Shown piece by piece: positions 4,634-41,694 of a DNA stretch of 53,775 bases. The notes below the pieces were generated by a model. It was not told the origin of the DNA, ran no database searches, and saw only the letters and a list, made by a program, of their open reading frames with translations. Position numbers and translations under genes: made by a program. Position 1 is the stretch's first letter; each line of letters starts with the position of its first letter. Location of the stretch: the NCBI GenBank assembly GCA_017539265.1, contig JAFYHG010000002.1:1-53775 (forward strand), in the 5' to 3' direction. Origin of the DNA: Alphaproteobacteria bacterium. GTDB taxonomy: Bacteria; Pseudomonadota; Alphaproteobacteria; CAAHEQ01; UBA3637.

Positions 4634-5746
4634 ATGTTAAAACTGACGATTGAACGGGCTCATTTATTAAAGGCTTTAAAACATACACAAAGTATTGTGG
4701 AACGGCGCCAAACCATTCCCATTTTATCCAATGTTCTGATTGAAACAGGACCGGACGGAATTGTTATTCGTGCTACCGATAACGAAATCGAAATCGTTGA
4801 AAAAGTGCCCGCCACCATCACGGAAGCCGGCTCTCTTACGGTACCGGCTCATCGCCTGTGTGATATCGTCAGCCGCCTACCCGAAGGGGCCCAAATTTCC
4901 CTGACTTTGGCGGAAAATAATCAACTGTCCCTGACTTCCGGCCGTGCCAAGTTTTCTTTGGCCACCCTGCCGACGGACGGTTTTCCCACCATGGTTCAGG
5001 AAAATATGCCCTTTACATTCACGGTTGCGGGCTCTGATTTACTGGGCCTGATCGGTAAGACTTCTTTTGCCGTTTCCACCGAAGAAACGCGGTATAATTT
5101 GAACGGTATTTACCTACACGAAAAAGCGGGCGATTCGCCCCGTTTGACGGCCGTTGCAACAGACGGACATCGGCTTGCAAGTGCTTATATTCCACTTCCC
5201 GAAGGGGCCGCCGGTATGCCGGGTGTTATTATTCCGCGTAAAACTATTGGGGAAATTTCTAAATTAGCCTCCGAATCGGATACGGAAATCAGTATTTCTC
5301 TTTCCGCCAATCAAATACGCTTCCATTTAGGGGACGTTGTGTTAGCCTCACGCCTGATTGACGGTACTTACCCCGAATACGAAAAAGTGATTCCCGCAAG
5401 CAATGATAAGGTTCTTGAAGCCGACTCGGCCGTCCTAAGCGACGTTATCGAACGGGTTTCCGTTGTTTCCGAAAAATCGCGCGGGATTAAACTTTCCATT
5501 AAGAATAACCTTATTCAAGTAACCGCCGCCGCCGCTGATGAAGGTTCTGCCGAAGATGAACTGGATGCGGCCTACACGGGTGAAGATCTGGAAATCGGCT
5601 TTAACTTTCGGTATTTATTGGATATTTTGGGCCAAATCAAAGGCGGAACGGTGCAACTGTTGATGAACGATTCCGTTTCCCCCGTGATTTTAAAAGACAC
5701 GACGGATGCCAACGCGCTTTATGTCCTTATGCCGATGCGGGTGTAA
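4634..5746 (+). CDS. dnaN: DNA polymerase III beta subunit (sliding clamp)
   Basis: At 370 residues it has the normal bacterial beta-clamp length and three successive clamp folds. Recognisable segments are KALKHTQSIVERRQTIPILS (about 10-29), ATDGHRLA (about 174) and the C-terminal YVLMPMRV, with the conserved PMR end that forms the partner-binding pocket. The start ATG sits behind AAAGGA. The stop codon abuts the recF ATG with no gap. The product forms the ring that tethers polymerase to DNA. dnaA is not next to it in this window. Confidence 0.97.
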   Translation: MLKLTIERAHLLKALKHTQSIVERRQTIPILSNVLIETGPDGIVIRATDNEIEIVEKVPATITEAGSLTVPAHRLCDIVSRLPEGAQISLTLAENNQLSLTSGRAKFSLATLPTDGFPTMVQENMPFTFTVAGSDLLGLIGKTSFAVSTEETRYNLNGIYLHEKAGDSPRLTAVATDGHRLASAYIPLPEGAAGMPGVIIPRKTIGEISKLASESDTEISISLSANQIRFHLGDVVLASRLIDGTYPEYEKVIPASNDKVLEADSAVLSDVIERVSVVSEKSRGIKLSIKNNLIQVTAAAADEGSAEDELDAAYTGEDLEIGFNFRYLLDILGQIKGGTVQLLMNDSVSPVILKDTTDANALYVLMPMRV

Positions 5747-6880
5747 ATGAAGACGGGGATCAGCCGCCTCAGGCTTACCAATTTTCGTTCTTATCCGGAA
5801 CTGGATATTTCATTCGGAACGGGCGGTGAGCCGGTTGCTCTGTGCGGGGCAAACGGTGTCGGAAAAACCAATATCCTAGAGGCTATTTCCTACCTGACCG
5901 CCGGCCGCGGCCTCAGGGGCGCCAAACTTTCCGACGTTGCCCGCCATATCGGGGAAGAAGTCTACCCGCTTTGGAGCATTGTAGCCAATCTTTATTCCCC
6001 CTTCGGCGAACATCAAGTCGGCACAGGCATGGTTGCGGGGGCCGATCGCCGACAAATGCGAATCGACGGCAAAAGCACTTCTCATCAATCCGATTTAGCA
6101 GACGTTTTTCGTTGTCTTTGGCTCACCCCGGCGCAAGACCGCCTTTTTTGTGGTGATCCCGCCGCCCGTCGCCGGTTTTTGGATCGAATTGTCGGGGCTT
6201 TTGATCCCCTGCACACCAATCGCCTGTCGGATTATCAGGCGGTGCTAAAAGAATGGTTTTGCCTGCTCCGTGAAGGGCGGCTTGATAATGCTTGGCTTTC
6301 GGGACTTGAAGAGCAACTTGTCGAAAACGGAATTGCCATCGCGGCCAGTCGCTTGGATATTGTCGAACGCCTGGGCACCTACCTGTCCGTAACTGAGGAT
6401 GCCTCTTTCCCTGCCGCAGAAATAAAGCTTACCGGCCTGTTGGAACAGGCGCTCCTTACCCAAAGTGCCGTCGCGGTAGAAGATATGTTTATGGGGCATT
6501 TGCGTGCGGCGCGTAAATCCTGTGCCGAAGGCGGCAACTTAACGGGCCCCCACACATCGGATTTTATTGTGATTCATCGCCAACAAAACCGCTCGGCGGA
6601 TTTGTGTTCTACCGGCGAACAAAAGGCACTCCTTCTTTCCATTATTTTGGCGGAAATGCGGGCCCAAATGGCGGAACAAGGGCGTTGTCCGGTCCTCCTG
6701 TTGGACGAAGTTGCGGCCCATTTAGACGCCCGCCGCCGCCATACGTTGTTTGATGTTTTAACCACCCGTCCCGCCCAAGTGTTTATGACCACCACAGATT
6801 CGACGATTTTTGCAGATTTTACTGGACAAATCGCGCAATTTGATGTAAAAGAAAAACAGGAAATAATAAAGGTTGCTTAA
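5747..6880 (+). CDS. recF: DNA replication/repair protein RecF
   Basis: This 377-residue SMC-like ATPase shows Walker A GANGVGKTN (about 33-41), the signature STGEQKALLLS (about 288) and Walker B VLLLDEVAAHLD (about 310), plus the RecF start LRLTNFRSY. It loads recombination proteins at single-strand gaps together with RecO and RecR. Translation starts directly at the dnaN stop (TAAATG), so expression is coupled. Confidence 0.96.
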   Translation: MKTGISRLRLTNFRSYPELDISFGTGGEPVALCGANGVGKTNILEAISYLTAGRGLRGAKLSDVARHIGEEVYPLWSIVANLYSPFGEHQVGTGMVAGADRRQMRIDGKSTSHQSDLADVFRCLWLTPAQDRLFCGDPAARRRFLDRIVGAFDPLHTNRLSDYQAVLKEWFCLLREGRLDNAWLSGLEEQLVENGIAIAASRLDIVERLGTYLSVTEDASFPAAEIKLTGLLEQALLTQSAVAVEDMFMGHLRAARKSCAEGGNLTGPHTSDFIVIHRQQNRSADLCSTGEQKALLLSIILAEMRAQMAEQGRCPVLLLDEVAAHLDARRRHTLFDVLTTRPAQVFMTTTDSTIFADFTGQIAQFDVKEKQEIIKVA

Positions 6881-6881
6881 A

Positions 6882-7055
6882 ATGAAAAAATTATTATTTG
6901 TTATATTATTGTTTTTGGCAGGTTGTTCGCGTATTGACTATATTTGCTATGATAAAGATCCGAACGCCATGACCGAACGCGAATTTGAATTGTGTAAGGC
7001 TTATCTATCCCGTTCCGAAACGGTTATCACAAATAATAACAACATTAAAAAATAG
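6882..7055 (+). CDS. Small predicted lipoprotein
   Basis: The 57-residue product MKKLLFVILLFLAGC... has a short signal sequence ending in a lipobox (LAGC, Cys15). The mature part is about 43 residues, polar and Asn-rich at the end. I start it at the ATG two bases after the recF stop; an in-frame TTG at 6873 would overlap recF. The family is not recognised. Position in the dnaN-recF-gyrB operon suggests co-expression, not necessarily shared function. Confidence 0.7.
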   Translation: MKKLLFVILLFLAGCSRIDYICYDKDPNAMTEREFELCKAYLSRSETVITNNNNIKK

Positions 7056-7075
7056 CAAAGGCAGAGGGCGTAAAA

Positions 7076-8002
7076 GTGAAAAAATGGGCTTTATTTTTGA
7101 TTGGTGTGATGTCGCTTTCCTGCTTGAAAAGTATTTCAGGTATGGCGGCTGTGTGTCCCTCGGAACGACCTTTGGTAATCGGGGGCGTTTGGAAAAATGA
7201 AAATTGTCCCGAATTTCAAATTCCTTATTTTTCTACCCTAGAGACAACTTCTTTTCCTCAGTTAGAAATACCGCTTTTATGCGATTCTAAGCATTGTCTA
7301 AAAGAAGAAGATAAAGTTCTTTGCCAACACTTAGAAGAGACATATAAATTTTGGTCAACAGGTATTATCCCTCTTGAAGATCATTTAATAGCGGTCCTAA
7401 AACATTCATGTAAAGATGATAGGGATGATTGTTTAAAATTAAGGGATCTTGAAAAAAAATTGGATAGTATAAATTTTCGGCTTTCTCAGATTAACGATGC
7501 GATTCGAAACAGTAATGCGTCTATTCATGAAGTGAATCAAATTATAACCGAAAAAAATCACAGAAGAGAAAAGTATCTCGATCAGTGTATAATTGAACAA
7601 AATAAATATCATCATATTAAAAGGCATTTTCCTGACCCATTACCAGCCAAAATAGGTTGTCCATCAGATTTACTTCATAGTTATGTAGAAATTTTAGAAA
7701 ATCGTTTAGATTTTCGCACGACTTGGGTAAACCGGTTTGAACGGGATTATATACGTACACAGGGAAGAAATATGGAATTACTTTTAGAGTATATGAAAAG
7801 AGAAAAAGATGCCCTTGAATTTGAAAAATTTTATACACCGGAAAAAGAAAAGCAACTCTCAGAAGAGTATGAAAAAGCCCTCGCTGAAAAATGTGTCTCA
7901 TGTGATACACCCGATCCATTAGATAATATCCCAAAAGAAGATTGCAATCAATGTCCCAACCGCGAATACGTGGACGGAAAATGTGTTTTAAAAAAGGAGT
8001 AA
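7076..8002 (+). CDS. Exported protein with central coiled coil and Cys-rich tail
   Basis: The 308-residue protein starts at GTG (MKKWALFLIGVMSLSC...). It has an N-terminal signal peptide (to about residue 25), a charged helical middle rich in Lys, Glu and Asp (about 90-265), and a Cys tail (CVSC, then CNQCPNREYVDGKC) ending at residue 308. Paired Cys imply periplasmic or surface disulfides. It is noticeably more AT-rich than recF and gyrB around it, which suggests a later insertion into the operon. The family is not recognised. Confidence 0.7.
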   Translation: MKKWALFLIGVMSLSCLKSISGMAAVCPSERPLVIGGVWKNENCPEFQIPYFSTLETTSFPQLEIPLLCDSKHCLKEEDKVLCQHLEETYKFWSTGIIPLEDHLIAVLKHSCKDDRDDCLKLRDLEKKLDSINFRLSQINDAIRNSNASIHEVNQIITEKNHRREKYLDQCIIEQNKYHHIKRHFPDPLPAKIGCPSDLLHSYVEILENRLDFRTTWVNRFERDYIRTQGRNMELLLEYMKREKDALEFEKFYTPEKEKQLSEEYEKALAEKCVSCDTPDPLDNIPKEDCNQCPNREYVDGKCVLKKE

Positions 8003-10408
<2,406 letters not shown>

Positions 10409-36483: not shown

Positions 36484-37881
36484 TCAAATAATCTTCCATA
36501 CCGGACCGGTTGGTGTATCTTTCACTTCTACCCCTTGATCCAGTAATTGTTTTTTAAGATTATCTGCCGTCGCCCAATCCTTTGCAAGACGTGCCTCTTG
36601 ACGCCGCTGAATTAATGCTTCTTGTTCAGGGGTTAAAGATTGTTGTTTACTTTCAGGAAATACCGCCAGCACAGTATCAAATTTTTTCATAACCTTTATA
36701 ACTTTATCTGCATCTTCCCGACTTAATTTTTCGAAGTTTTTATTCACATTTGTCATAAAATCAAATACCGCCGCCAAAGCAATAGATGTATTTAAATCAT
36801 CATCCATTCCTTTTTCAAAAGCCTCCTGTACCTGATTTAGTACGGCTTGCAGATCTGACCACCCTGCCCCATTGGCTTCATTTTGAAGACGTGTCAAAAA
36901 GTTTCCAAATTTATCAATCACACTTTGATTACCGGACAAAGCGCTTTCTTGAAAATCCATTTTTTGCCTGTAATGAGCTTTAATAAACTCATAACGAATC
37001 GCTTCTGCGGAATAACCTTTTGCCAATAACTCATTCAAAGTAAAGCAATTTCCGAGTGATTTTGACATTTTTTGGCCATTTACGGTAATATGTTCGTTAT
37101 GCATCCAATAGTTCACATATTTTGTACCATAAGCACATTCGGATTGCGCAATTTCATTTGTATGATGCGGGAAAATTAAATCCACACCGCCCATATGGAT
37201 ATCAAACGGCTGCCCAAGATATTTTTTCGACATAGCCGAGCATTCGATATGCCATCCCGGACGTCCTTTTCCCCAAGGCGTTTCCCAGAAATTATCGCCG
37301 TCTTGCTCGTCCCAACCTTTCCAAACAGCAAAATCCTGTGCGTTTTCTTTCTCATACTCATCAGCCGTCAATCGTCCGTCGGCATTAAACCGCAGGCTCG
37401 ACATATCAATGCCAGCCATTTGCCCATAATTCGGATCTTTATTGATTTTAAAATAAACATCTCCTTTTTCTGTTTTATAAGCATATCCTTTATCCAATAG
37501 ATTTTGGATAAGTTCAATCATAGCCGGCACTTCTTCCGTAGCCCTAGGCACAATATCCGGCTTTTGAATATGAAGCGTCTGGCAATCTTTCATAAACTCT
37601 GCCCCATAAAAATCCGTAAATTCGCGTAATTTTTTACCAGCTTTTTTCGAATCCCGAATCGTTTTATCATCAATATCGGTTAAATTCATACAGAATGTAA
37701 CTTTATACCCTTTATAACGTAAGTATCTGTTTAGTAAATCATAAAATACAAATGCCCGCATATTTCCTATATGCGCATAATTATAAATTGTCGGGCCACA
37801 GCCATAAAAACGAACTTCACCTTCATGGATAGGTTTGAAAACTTCTTTTCTGTGATTGGCTGTATTATAGATAGTCAACAT
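36484..37881 (-). CDS. cysS: Cysteinyl-tRNA synthetase
   Basis: The 465-residue class Ia synthetase has FYGCGPTIYNYAHIGNMRAF (about 28-47) containing the HIGN-type signature with zinc-binding Cys, WHIECSAMSKKYLG (about 213), GGVDLIFPHHTNEIAQSE (about 232-249) and KMSKSLGN (about 275-282), all required elements. It charges tRNA-Cys. Directly downstream, 3 bp away, is a gene for a Cys-rich secreted protein, a neat but probably coincidental pairing. Confidence 0.97.
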   Translation of the reverse strand: MLTIYNTANHRKEVFKPIHEGEVRFYGCGPTIYNYAHIGNMRAFVFYDLLNRYLRYKGYKVTFCMNLTDIDDKTIRDSKKAGKKLREFTDFYGAEFMKDCQTLHIQKPDIVPRATEEVPAMIELIQNLLDKGYAYKTEKGDVYFKINKDPNYGQMAGIDMSSLRFNADGRLTADEYEKENAQDFAVWKGWDEQDGDNFWETPWGKGRPGWHIECSAMSKKYLGQPFDIHMGGVDLIFPHHTNEIAQSECAYGTKYVNYWMHNEHITVNGQKMSKSLGNCFTLNELLAKGYSAEAIRYEFIKAHYRQKMDFQESALSGNQSVIDKFGNFLTRLQNEANGAGWSDLQAVLNQVQEAFEKGMDDDLNTSIALAAVFDFMTNVNKNFEKLSREDADKVIKVMKKFDTVLAVFPESKQQSLTPEQEALIQRRQEARLAKDWATADNLKKQLLDQGVEVKDTPTGPVWKII

Positions 37882-38252
37882 CTGTATTCTCCTTTTCTTT
37901 CAGAAAAGAGTATCATATTTTTTACTGGTTTTCAAGGGATTTTTACCGAAAAAATTTATCCACTTTTTTCCTTTCATTATTATAATAAAAATAAATTAGA
38001 ATTAGTAGAGGGTGTGAATTATGTGCAAAACTTTTTTTATTTTTTCTTGACACTCCCTTTTTATTTTTATCGAATCGTTAAAAATAGTGGATCCTGATTT
38101 TTATTAAGGTCTAAAATTTACTAGCTACCCTCTGTGGATTTAGACATGAATATTTTTGAATAAAAAAATAGGATTTTGTAAAAATAAAAAAGTTATCCCC
38201 ATGATTCACAATTTTCTTGTCTCTTTTTTATTTTTTTGATATAATCTTCGGC
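37882..38252. other. Candidate replication origin (oriC) region
   Basis: This is the longest gene-free stretch, about 370 bp and very AT-rich, between divergent cysS and dnaQ. Near-consensus DnaA boxes (TTATNCACA) are TTATCCACT (37956-37964), TAATTCACA (minus, 38013-38021), TTATCCCCA (38193-38201) and TGATTCACA (38202-38210), each one mismatch off, plus a two-mismatch box at 38133-38141. The last two are adjacent. parS-like sites and parAB follow within 3 kb. The strand bias of base use appears to flip near here by eye. Origin function is inferred. Confidence 0.55.
38217..38245 (+). promoter_or_regulatory. dnaQ promoter predicting a leaderless mRNA
   Basis: TTGTCT (38217-38222), a 17-bp spacer and TATAAT (38240-38245) are followed by 7 bp and the dnaQ ATG. 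No Shine-Dalgarno is present, so transcription likely starts at the ATG. Confidence 0.7.
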
Positions 38253-38942
38253 ATGAGAGAAATTGTCCTAGATACAGAAACAACAGGGTTGGATCCCGAA
38301 CAAGGCCATAAAATTGTTGAAATCGGTTGCGTGGAATTGGTAAACCATATGCCGACAGGGCGGACTTTTCAAGAATATTTAAATCCGGAACGGGAAATGG
38401 GTGAGGATGTTATTGCTGTTCACGGAATTACAAATGAGTTTTTGAAAGATAAGCCAAAATTTAAAGAAGTTGCTGAAAAATTTATAGAATTTATTGGAAC
38501 TGATTCAAAACTTGTTATTCATAATGCGGCGTTTGATATGAAATTTTTGAATGCTGAATTGTCTACGGCCGGTTATGAAAAATTATCTTTTGATCGCGTT
38601 ATAGATACATTAATTATGGCGCGGCAAAAATTTCCCGGCAGTCGTGTCAATTTAAATGAACTTTGTAAACGGTTTAATGTGGATGCCTCACGTCGAACTG
38701 TTCACGGGGCATTGTTGGATAGTGAATTATTGGCAGAGGTTTACTTAGAATTAATTGGTGGTCGTGAACCGGGGTTGGTTTTGAATGCCCAAAAATCTTC
38801 TGTTCAAAAAACTGAACAAGTCCATGAAAAAGTAGAACATATCTTTCATGAGCCACGCTCTTTTCCTGTCCCCTCGGAAGAGTTGGCAGCACATCGGGAA
38901 TTTTTGAAAAAAATATCTGATAATTTATGGGAAAAATCATGA
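38253..38942 (+). CDS. dnaQ: DNA polymerase III epsilon subunit (proofreading exonuclease)
   Basis: I start at the ATG at 38253 (229 residues, MREIVLDTETTGLDP...), since the promoter lies just upstream. DEDDh exonuclease motifs: VLDTETTGLD (about 4-13), HNAAFDMKFLNAEL (about 87-100) and the final HGALLDSELLAEVY (about 150-163). The C-terminal 60 residues form the link to the alpha subunit. It provides proofreading in the replicase. The stop overlaps the next ATG by 4 bp. Confidence 0.95.
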   Translation: MREIVLDTETTGLDPEQGHKIVEIGCVELVNHMPTGRTFQEYLNPEREMGEDVIAVHGITNEFLKDKPKFKEVAEKFIEFIGTDSKLVIHNAAFDMKFLNAELSTAGYEKLSFDRVIDTLIMARQKFPGSRVNLNELCKRFNVDASRRTVHGALLDSELLAEVYLELIGGREPGLVLNAQKSSVQKTEQVHEKVEHIFHEPRSFPVPSEELAAHREFLKKISDNLWEKS

Positions 38943-39382
38943 AAAAATTATTATTTTTTATTGCGTTATCTGTTTCATTTCCAATCCATGCGCAAATGAT
39001 TGATGTCTTAGGTACTTTGGGTGTTCAAGGTGCTATGACGGTTGGCGATACGCAATCGGCTGCAATGGGAATGTCCGCATTAAAGAAAAATAAAATTTTA
39101 CAGGATATTACACAAACAGCTATGCAAATAAAAACGCAATTTATGGGCGACTATTCTTCTGTTAGTAGGGATTCCGTATTCGGTAATCCTTTTTCAGGCA
39201 TTGATTGGGATATCGGATCAGAATCATCAAATTTGTTTTATATTCAATTAAATCAAATAAATAAAACTACCTGTTCTTCACTTTTGTCGGCTCGGGTTCC
39301 AACTGTTTGGACAGAATTAAACGGGGATGCCGGATCAAGAGCTTGTGAAGAGAGTAATGAAATTAAATTTGTTTTTGATTAA
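38939..39382 (+). CDS. Hypothetical secreted protein
   Basis: I start at the ATG overlapping the dnaQ stop (ATGA), giving 147 residues. A signal peptide (MKKLLFFIALSVSFPIHA, cut before QMI) is followed by a Met/Gly/Thr-rich helix region (TLGVQGAMTVGDTQSAAMGMSAL) and a C-terminal part with three Cys. The family is not recognised. Its coupling to dnaQ suggests a locally evolved exported gene using the dnaQ promoter. Confidence 0.65.
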   Translation: MKKLLFFIALSVSFPIHAQMIDVLGTLGVQGAMTVGDTQSAAMGMSALKKNKILQDITQTAMQIKTQFMGDYSSVSRDSVFGNPFSGIDWDIGSESSNLFYIQLNQINKTTCSSLLSARVPTVWTELNGDAGSRACEESNEIKFVFD

Positions 39383-39397
39383 GTTTCACGTGAAATA
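39382..39397. other. parS-like centromere site 1
   Basis: AGTTTCACGTGAAATA differs from the parS consensus TGTTTCACGTGAAACA at two outer positions and keeps the full GTTTCACGTGAAA core. It lies in the gap just before rsmG. Confidence 0.8.
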
Positions 39398-39444: not shown

Positions 39445-40053
39445 ATGTTTCACATGAAACAAATTGATATATTTTTAAAAGCGTCCGAAAAAGATATATA
39501 TATATATATTGACACATTAAAAAAGTGGCAAAAAGCCGTTAATTTAGTGTCAAATGCCTCTTTAAATGATGTTTGGAATAGGCATATTGTGGATTCTGCT
39601 CAACTGTATCCACTTATTCCTTCATCGGCAAAAACGTTGATAGATTTTGGCAGCGGTGCCGGTTTTCCGGCCTTAGCATTGGCAATTTTGAATAAAAATA
39701 ATCAAGGGCCCCTAACCCAAATTATTTTGATTGAAAGCGATACTAAAAAATGCCTGTTTTTAAAAGAAATTGCTCGTGTTTTAAAATTACCTGTTCAAAT
39801 TTTAAATCAGCGTATTGAAAATATTCAAAATATTTCGGCAGACGTAATTACATCTCGTGGTTTGGCCGATGTGGATACCCTTTTAAACTTAAGTCGCCCC
39901 TTTATTCAAAAAGATACCGTTTGCCTATTTTTAAAAGGGAAATCTGTTCAGAAAGAAATTGAAGAGAATACAGTTCCCTGTTCTATAGAAAAAATAAAAA
40001 GTATAACAAATTCAGATAGTTTTATATTAAAAATCACGGAGGTTTTGAAATGA
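39445..40053 (+). CDS. rsmG: 16S rRNA m7G527 methyltransferase RsmG
   Basis: The 202-residue Rossmann methyltransferase has motif I TLIDFGSGAGFPALALAIL (about 65-83), IILIESDTKKCLFLKEIARVL (about 94-114), the upstream NLVSNASLNDVWNRHIVDS and VITSRGLADVDTLL (about 133-146). It methylates G527 of 16S rRNA. The start is uncertain: TTG 39436 (weak GGA upstream), ATG 39445 or ATG 39454. A parS-like site covers the last two. The stop overlaps the parA ATG (ATGA). Confidence 0.93.
   Translation: MFHMKQIDIFLKASEKDIYIYIDTLKKWQKAVNLVSNASLNDVWNRHIVDSAQLYPLIPSSAKTLIDFGSGAGFPALALAILNKNNQGPLTQIILIESDTKKCLFLKEIARVLKLPVQILNQRIENIQNISADVITSRGLADVDTLLNLSRPFIQKDTVCLFLKGKSVQKEIEENTVPCSIEKIKSITNSDSFILKITEVLK
39446..39461. 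other. parS-like centromere site 2, over the rsmG start
   Basis: TGTTTCACATGAAACA has one central mismatch to the parS consensus. It lies 64 bp from site 1 and overlaps the rsmG start codons, so ParB spreading could affect rsmG-parAB expression. Confidence 0.82.
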
Positions 40054-40826
40054 CGCGTATTTTTTCTTTATCTAATCAAAAAGGCGGAGTCGGTAAAACA
40101 ACAACGACGGTTAATGTGGCCACGGCTTTGGCGGCACTTCGGAAAAAAGTTCTGATTATTGATTTGGATCCGCAAGGTAACGCAACTGTTAGTCTTGGTG
40201 TTCAGCGGCGCCAAGGTGGGCAGAATTCTTATACTGTTTTGACGGGACGATATAAAGTTTCCGAAAGTGTTGTTCAAACGAACATTCCTTTTCTTTATGT
40301 TTTACCCGCCAGTCAGGAATTATTGGGGGTGGATTTAGAATTGGCCGGTGTTGAAAAACCTCAATTTTTCCTTAAAAATGCATTATCGGATGTATCTGAT
40401 TTTGATTATATTTTTATTGATTGTCCGCCGGCTGTCGGGTTGTTGACGTTAAATGCATTGGTTGCTTCAACTTCTGTTATTATTCCGGTTCAATGCGAAT
40501 ATTTGGCCCTGGAAGGTGTGGCAGATTTAATGAAAACAATTGAAAAAGTTAAGAAAAACTTTAATCCCTCTTTAAAAATAGACGGCATTGTCATGACGAT
40601 GTTTGATGGGCGTTCGCGTCTATCCAGGTCGGTAGATAATGATGTGCGATCCTTTTTTAAAGACTTGGTTTACGATACAGTTATTCCGCGTAATGTGCGT
40701 ATTCCTGAGGCACCTTCGCACGGAAAACCCGTTATGCTGTATGATTTTAGGAGTACCGGTGCCCAAAGCTATATTCGCTTGGCCGGTGAAATTTTAAATC
40801 GTGAGAAAGGAGAAAATCATGGATAG
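40050..40826 (+). CDS. parA: Chromosome partitioning ATPase ParA
   Basis: The 258-residue deviant Walker ATPase begins ARG-free with TRIFSLSNQKGGVGKTTTTVN (KGGVGKTT at about 11-18), VLIIDLDPQGNATVSLG (about 34-50) and IFIDCPPAVGLLTLNAL (about 118-134). It forms the nucleoid-bound gradient that moves ParB-parS complexes after replication. Its end overlaps parB by 8 bp. Confidence 0.96.
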   Translation: MTRIFSLSNQKGGVGKTTTTVNVATALAALRKKVLIIDLDPQGNATVSLGVQRRQGGQNSYTVLTGRYKVSESVVQTNIPFLYVLPASQELLGVDLELAGVEKPQFFLKNALSDVSDFDYIFIDCPPAVGLLTLNALVASTSVIIPVQCEYLALEGVADLMKTIEKVKKNFNPSLKIDGIVMTMFDGRSRLSRSVDNDVRSFFKDLVYDTVIPRNVRIPEAPSHGKPVMLYDFRSTGAQSYIRLAGEILNREKGENHG

Positions 40827-41694
40827 GAATTTAGGTTTAGGTAAAGGATTGAGTGCGTTAATGGGGGAAGATTTTTCTAGCTCCCCTGCCCCATCGGAAA
40901 ATAACGGTATTACATTGGTGGATATTGATTCGTTGGTTCCCAGCCCCTATCAACCGCGCCGTGTTTTTGCCGAAAGCGCTTTATCGGATTTAGTTTTATC
41001 CATTAAGGAAAAAGGTGTCTTACAGCCACTTTTGGTGCGTAAGCGTTCTGACGATTCTTATGAAATTATTGCCGGTGAAAGAAGGCTTCGGGCTTCTAAA
41101 CAGGCAGGATTATCACAAGTCCCTGTTATTGTTAAAGATTTTGATGATAAAGCTGCTTTGGAAGTTGCCTTGATTGAGAACTTGCAACGCGAGGATTTAA
41201 ATCCGCTTGAAGAAGCGGAGGCATATAAACGCCTTTTAAATGAATTTCAATATACACAAGATGAACTTTCGCGTGTTGTCGGTAAAAGTCGCAGCCATGT
41301 GGCCAATATGATGCGCCTTTTGGATTTGCCGGCAGATATAAAGCAACTTGTTGAAAATAAAGAATTAACTATCGGGCATGCGCGGGCGCTTTTAAATGCG
41401 CAAAATCCATCTTTGTTGGCTTCGGAAATTATTGAACGGGGCCTAAGTGTTCGACAGGCCGAAAAAATGGCCACCACCAAAGGGCATGTGCCGACCAGAG
41501 CCCGTGCCCCTAAAAAAGTATATCAAAAGGATGCTGATATTTTAGCGTTGGAAAAAGAAATGTCAAATTTGCTTAAAACACAGGTTTCAATCAATTGGAC
41601 CGGTGTGGACGGTACGGTTGTGATATCCTATAATAATTTGGATACATTAGATGTTATTTTACAAAAGTTAACTGCTATGGGATCATTGCAATAA
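40819..41694 (+). CDS. parB: Chromosome partitioning protein ParB
   Basis: The 291-residue protein starts at the ATG behind AAAGGAG. It shows LGLGKGLSALMGED, the CTP-binding GERRLRASKQAG (about 90-101) and ENLQREDLNP (about 122-131), and the DNA-binding helix-turn-helix TQDELSRVVGKSRSHVANMMRLLDLP (about 145-170), followed by a dimerisation tail. It clamps DNA from parS, two candidate copies of which lie about 1.4 kb upstream. Confidence 0.96.
   Translation: MDRNLGLGKGLSALMGEDFSSSPAPSENNGITLVDIDSLVPSPYQPRRVFAESALSDLVLSIKEKGVLQPLLVRKRSDDSYEIIAGERRLRASKQAGLSQVPVIVKDFDDKAALEVALIENLQREDLNPLEEAEAYKRLLNEFQYTQDELSRVVGKSRSHVANMMRLLDLPADIKQLVENKELTIGHARALLNAQNPSLLASEIIERGLSVRQAEKMATTKGHVPTRARAPKKVYQKDADILALEKEMSNLLKTQVSINWTGVDGTVVISYNNLDTLDVILQKLTAMGSLQ

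Follow-up and report, generated by a model that had tools for sequence, protein, structure and literature searches.

The gene-free gap between cysS and dnaQ (positions 37882 to 38252) is, with a probability of roughly 0.93, the chromosome origin (oriC) of this alphaproteobacterium. The strand skew reverses at the gap, its anatomy is conserved among relatives and so is its place near dnaQ. The window, meaning the whole stretch of 53,775 bases that was analysed, is one complete contig (C3) of a 33-contig genome totalling 1,467,681 bases (1.47 Mb), and its nearest relatives in a named collection are uncultured Alphaproteobacteria, e.g. isolates SIG53, SIG52 and UBA7488, which would suit a place in the gut order RF32. 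An earlier note on this DNA had proposed the origin, and that reading stands because of evidence beyond what the note contained: skew resolved by gene strand, a module conserved in the family, skew reversal in relatives, and, at 39 of 62 loci of named alphaproteobacteria, a DnaA-box cluster upstream of dnaQ. The strongest evidence is comparative, coming from a sequence profile trained outside the genus.

The gap contains 25.3% GC, against 41.5% for the whole window, and a search for RNA families found none in it. Its flanks are divergent, with cysS (36484 to 37881) on the minus strand and dnaQ (38253 to 38942) on the plus strand. To the right, on the plus strand, lie two parS-like sites (39382-39397, two mismatches; 39446-39461, one mismatch), rsmG (from 39436), parA (from 40050) and parB (40801 to 41694). 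The dnaN-recF-gyrB genes are located at 4634-10408, 28-33 kb from the gap, and dnaA is on a separate contig, C30. In its account of composition, flanking genes, the nearby rsmG-parAB-parS and the distant dnaN-recF-gyrB, the earlier note was accurate. A small conserved gene of about 150 aa with a signal-peptide-like start follows dnaQ (38927-39382). No Pfam or NCBIfam family was found for it, and comparison of its alignment with a structure library gave weak matches (E no better than 0.16), mostly to type IV pilins; SecB, which might be expected at this place, was not supported.

Summed along the window, the GC skew reaches its minimum at 37975, within the gap. G and C were counted at fourfold-degenerate third positions in order to part the effect of the replication strand from that of the gene strand. 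On the left side of the gap, the plus strand is C-rich at these sites in both sets of genes, with a skew of -0.29 for 10 plus-strand genes (366 G/668 C) and -0.37 for 19 minus-strand genes (500 G/1075 C), while right of it the plus strand is G-rich, with +0.23 for 10 plus-strand genes (294 G/183 C) and +0.30 for six minus-strand genes (201 G/109 C). Since the reversal is the same on both gene strands, it reflects replication, not coding; the flip that had been judged by eye was borne out over the pooled genes, and within the window the sign of the skew changes independently of gene strand. As the genome is in 33 contigs, no whole-chromosome curve was possible, and the skew evidence covers the window and a 0.45-Mb sample (a third of the genome). 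The sampled stretches elsewhere were mostly one-signed or weak per contig. Based on 5-kb tiles, one place on contig C29 has a local V-shaped skew (126) that equals the origin tiles (up to 156) in depth; gene orientation can produce such a shape. Ten relatives with long contigs were picked by us out of 57 for the same analysis. Along arms of up to 20 kb from the homologous site, the right arm was G-rich (positive) in 10/10 and the left arm C-rich (negative) in 8/10, the left arm of G021 and G013 not being negative over its full length. Within 5 kb of the site (for one side of G007, 4.2 kb) the expected signs were observed on each side in all ten.

Exact copies of the DnaA box TTATCCACA were searched for in the gap and none was found. 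The earlier note had counted four one-mismatch boxes, two of them adjacent. Against TTATCCACA just two boxes qualify, TTATCCACT at 37956-37964 and TTATCCCCA at 38193-38201, both on the plus strand and the former aligned with a box in relatives; the count of four holds solely under the looser consensus TTWTNCACA. At zero to one mismatch to the latter the gap contains seven sites, two abutting pairs among them. One is the adjacent pair of the earlier note, formed by the 38193 box and TGATTCACA (38202-38210, plus strand), and is real. The more important pair, which had been missed, is on the minus strand and consists of a degenerate box 1 (TAATTCACA, 38013-38021) and box 2 (TTTTGCACA, 38022-38030), both aligned in relatives.

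Two one-mismatch boxes in 371 bp are unusual for the sequence of the gap (p 0.004 by shuffling), so that the cluster is above chance, though the genome sample contains denser ones. Seven sampled stretches elsewhere in the genome, intergenic or not, hold three one-mismatch boxes per 400 bp; a denser cluster, named in the earlier note as an observation that would speak against this location, therefore does exist in the literal sense. This test is weak here because the boxes of the window are degenerate. Box density was dropped as proof of an origin, and on its own it would not have located the gap. Origins of a sister branch are far richer in boxes, with 11 one-mismatch boxes per 400 bp in L241 (G011), 8 in L244/L143 (G007) and 7 in L148 (G010), the cluster of the last lying about 5 kb downstream of dnaQ. 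Near the contig end, a tandem array (positions 1-1151) with a 141-bp unit in 2.6 copies (96% matches) and 4.8 copies (84% matches) raises the box and GANTC counts, TTATCCATA and GATTC coming back every 141 bp; these may be repeats within coding sequence.

Of the 57 relatives, 52 yielded a DnaQ, and the order dnaQ-X-rsmG-parA recurs. Thirty loci upstream of dnaQ were compared with shuffled sequences; an excess of one-mismatch boxes was present in 20 (p<0.05 each) and absent in 10. A single anatomy is common to many of the sequences upstream of dnaQ. It consists, in order, of a left DnaA box, an A/T-only tract, TAG trios, two abutting reversed DnaA boxes, a 16-nt T-rich spacer, TTGACA, 16-19 nt and CGA[AC]TCG. 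Twenty-three aligned origins were picked by the pattern TTGAC[AG]...GA[AC]TCG, and these letters are therefore conserved by choice. The features that were not selected for are the A/T-only run, the TAG-rich trios and the abutting minus-strand boxes at a near-constant distance to TTGACA. All 23 of the 23 origins contain an A/T-only run, 16-28 nt long with a median of 21; that of the window, 23 nt at 37976-37998, is likely the DNA-unwinding element. TTGACA, a -35-like hexamer, is at 38047-38052 on the plus strand, 16 nt 3' of box 2 as in the module-bearing branch. The distance from the best box to TTGACA was 25 nt in 16, 34 nt in 5 and 26 nt in 2 of the origins. In 21/23 origins, versus 1/305 control TTGACA sites, a box of no more than two mismatches precedes TTGACA by exactly 25 or 34 nt. 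The distance from TTGACA to CGANTCG was 18, 17, 16 and 19 nt in 11, 10, 1 and 1 origins, respectively, with one (L009) having AGACTCG.

A nucleotide profile was built from 19 origins, excluding the window and three congeners, and run on the window and the 0.45-Mb genome sample. The best match was 37946-38081 (62.1 bits, E 1.5e-17), the next being the inverted right half of the gap (15.5 bits), and the best beyond the window scored 14.6 bits. A profile lacking only the window's own sequence matched the same 37946-38081 at E 7.8e-21. Among the fetched loci, a match was obtained in 34/48 and none in 14/48. In G020, G011, G007 and the more distant G037 the profile matched the unwinding half and stopped short of the CGANTCG end (model positions 4-94, 14-97, 13-97 and 35-112, respectively). 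The intergenic sequence is thus conserved at the same place in relatives, although that place is not universal, given the 10 of 30 dnaQ-upstream loci with no box excess and the 14 of 48 stretches with no profile match. The weak second copy of the unwinding half, with its box pair facing dnaQ (38180-38250, minus strand), reached 18.0 bits (E 5.6e-4) in a profile match, and second, inverted matches were also present in the sister-branch relatives L020 and L244. The geometry TGTGGATAA-N16-TTGACA, allowing one mismatch, was found in 31 of 240 genomes of the class, three of them family members. The matched strings outside the family were judged unlike origins and the fixed geometry was rejected there; the sensitivity of this search is low, as even the window's own degenerate copy escaped it.

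The first half of the module matches, in order and polarity, the published basal unwinding system (BUS). As described in PMC8287927, the latter comprises a single DnaA box or two, a spacer no longer than 16 bp and three or more trios with a central A (NAN), the trio consensus being 3'-GAT-5', i.e. 5'-TAG-3'. The window contains two boxes at two mismatches each, a 4-bp spacer and five candidate DnaA-trios, AAT TAG AAT TAG TAG (37994-38008, plus strand), which places it within a definition of a box pair (one member having no more than two mismatches), a spacer not exceeding 16 bp and a minimum of three NAN trios. In 17/23 origins three or more such trios precede the boxes, and this rule is easily satisfied in AT-rich DNA. 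In the 22 nt 5' of box 1, TAG occurs 33 times over the 23 origins versus 0 for CTA, and 19.6 (sd 2.6) in shuffles. Paired boxes, a short spacer, TAG-rich trios and an A/T tract in the same order and polarity are shared with the BUS of Bacillus subtilis and others. The differences are that the boxes are degenerate in the species of the window, that some relatives have TTG or TAT for TAG, and that the box pair is trailed by a second fixed half (TTGACA and CGA[AC]TCG).

Based on named alphaproteobacterial records (80 loci, of which 18 were dropped as not full length; a cluster being three or more boxes), the best cluster was upstream of dnaQ in 39 of the 62 full-length loci, downstream in 1 and absent in 22. 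Rhodobacteraceae, Azospirillum and Thalassospira have a box cluster 5' of dnaQ as the window does; the distance to dnaQ is about 2.3 kb in the first and 3.2-3.5 kb in the other two (2.2-3.5 kb overall), whereas in the lineage of the window the cluster directly abuts the gene. The rival reading is that the gap is just a regulatory region shared by cysS and dnaQ, its boxes purely transcriptional and the true origin elsewhere. In its favour, a dnaQ promoter candidate, TTGTCT-17-TATAAT, occurs at 38217-38245 on the plus strand, in a stretch where promoter-like sites are at a chance-level number; cysS is also divergent in many relatives. The module is kept, however, in five loci where no cysS was seen adjoining (L015, L016, L018, L019 and L022), and in three relatives (G005, G022 and G026) it lies 1.6, 1.3 and 3.3 kb from dnaQ, which argues that it is not merely the cysS/dnaQ promoter region. 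A strand-independent skew reversal is likewise not expected of a promoter, and a purely regulatory role is highly improbable. Within 38240-38255 the -10 candidate TATAAT stops 7 nt short of the dnaQ ATG, so the dnaQ message may be nearly leaderless.

The Cori of Caulobacter crescentus is also alphaproteobacterial, has DnaA boxes and GANTC and belongs to a lineage with GcrA and CcrM. It differs from the gap in that the latter has neither the CtrA site TTAA-N7-TTAA nor a consensus IHF site, and CtrA and IHF sites were rejected as origin parts. The CtrA pattern was found 0 times in the gap and in 1/23 origins, which does not place the gap with Caulobacter-type CtrA-controlled origins.

The second half of the module is particular to one branch of the family, where it has a fixed orientation and fits a GcrA target on the minus strand. 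The extended GcrA motif YGAKTCK was reported for Caulobacter, and no such preference for Brevundimonas, in PMC7987155. CGAATCG at 38071-38077 is a GANTC site reading CGATTCG on the minus strand and fits this motif; the minus-strand reading CGA[TG]TCG does so in one fixed orientation at 22/22 origins. TTGACA-N15..20-CGANTCG occurs at least once in 32/43 family genomes and in two copies in the whole genome of the window, the non-origin copy having T as its centre base. A or C occupies the centre at 22/22 origin places versus 23/64 elsewhere (Fisher p 2.6e-8, kinship uncorrected). GcrA was identified in 34/43 family genomes, including that of the window. A 30-row DnaQ tree groups the eight module-less family members in a single branch (97/96). 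The GcrA family model was matched as two separate halves in 20/20 module genomes with a GcrA match, and in one stretch in eight module-less genomes (G007, G009, G010, G011, G014, G020, G023 and G024). This correlation between GcrA build and module counts as one event because it is a single split on the tree, and GcrA control of the origin is offered as a possible lead, not as a finding.

TTGACA and the minus-strand GcrA-type GANTC may tentatively be viewed as a GcrA/sigma70 promoter-like element tying origin use or transcription to the cell cycle; a YGAKTCK site and GcrA are both present, yet TTGACA is not followed by a consensus -10. In most origins the hexamer 17-18 nt after it is CGAATC or CGACTC, and the spacing and orientation preferences of the origins are absent among the 64 matches elsewhere, which speaks against a general promoter class. 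Both observations would suit a binding site for some other origin protein in place of a promoter or a methylation site, and this is a serious possibility, if short of even odds, with the one-strand fit to YGAKTCK and the distribution of GcrA weighing against it.

GANTC is also the site of CcrM, and in E. coli GATC and SeqA hold back re-initiation, so that the second half could instead be a CcrM methylation sensor delaying re-initiation, with no role in transcription. A CcrM-type RAMA domain is present in 38/43 family genomes, and Caulobacter origins contain several GANTC motifs, though CcrM is described as not required for initiation control in that organism (PMC3973325). No RAMA domain was found in the genome of the window or in G001, G012, G018 and G032, and CGANTCG is retained in G000, G001, G012 and G032, where none was found; incomplete assemblies could explain part of these absences. 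A search for CcrM in the genome of the window gave two N6/N4 methyltransferase matches, of which the 235-aa one was judged unlike CcrM, and the assignment was rejected. General enrichment of GANTC in the origins was likewise rejected (16 versus 11.5 expected, sd 3.0). A palindromic methylation site needs no single orientation, yet 22/22 origins share one, and a methylation sensor seems quite unlikely. A fuller form of the GcrA/sigma70 proposal is that in one branch the melting module was fused at near-fixed spacing to the promoter-like element, GcrA or transcription within oriC directly helping or timing opening, while the sister branch has a differently built GcrA and, in two of its origins, forward-facing boxes after the pair instead; this is more doubtful than the promoter-like element itself.

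With the gap taken as oriC, DnaA binding and melting there can be inferred from the BUS literature. DnaA would load on the abutting reversed boxes (38013-38030), and the oligomer would grow leftward across the TAG trios and melt the A/T tract, with the left box at 37956 and the right boxes at 38193-38210 completing the assembly. Forks would then depart in both directions, leaving the skew record, and the parS sites and parAB, 1-3.5 kb rightward, would segregate the new origins. Origins of this kind are already known; for the variant with a fixed second half, a literature search of limited depth found no description, nor one of a link between GcrA and origin opening. The origin is placed firmly enough to orient genomes of this uncultured lineage and to help in interpreting growth rates estimated from read depth. 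Kept beside dnaQ or displaced from it, the rigid second half is a testable candidate for a site at which GcrA could act directly on origin opening.
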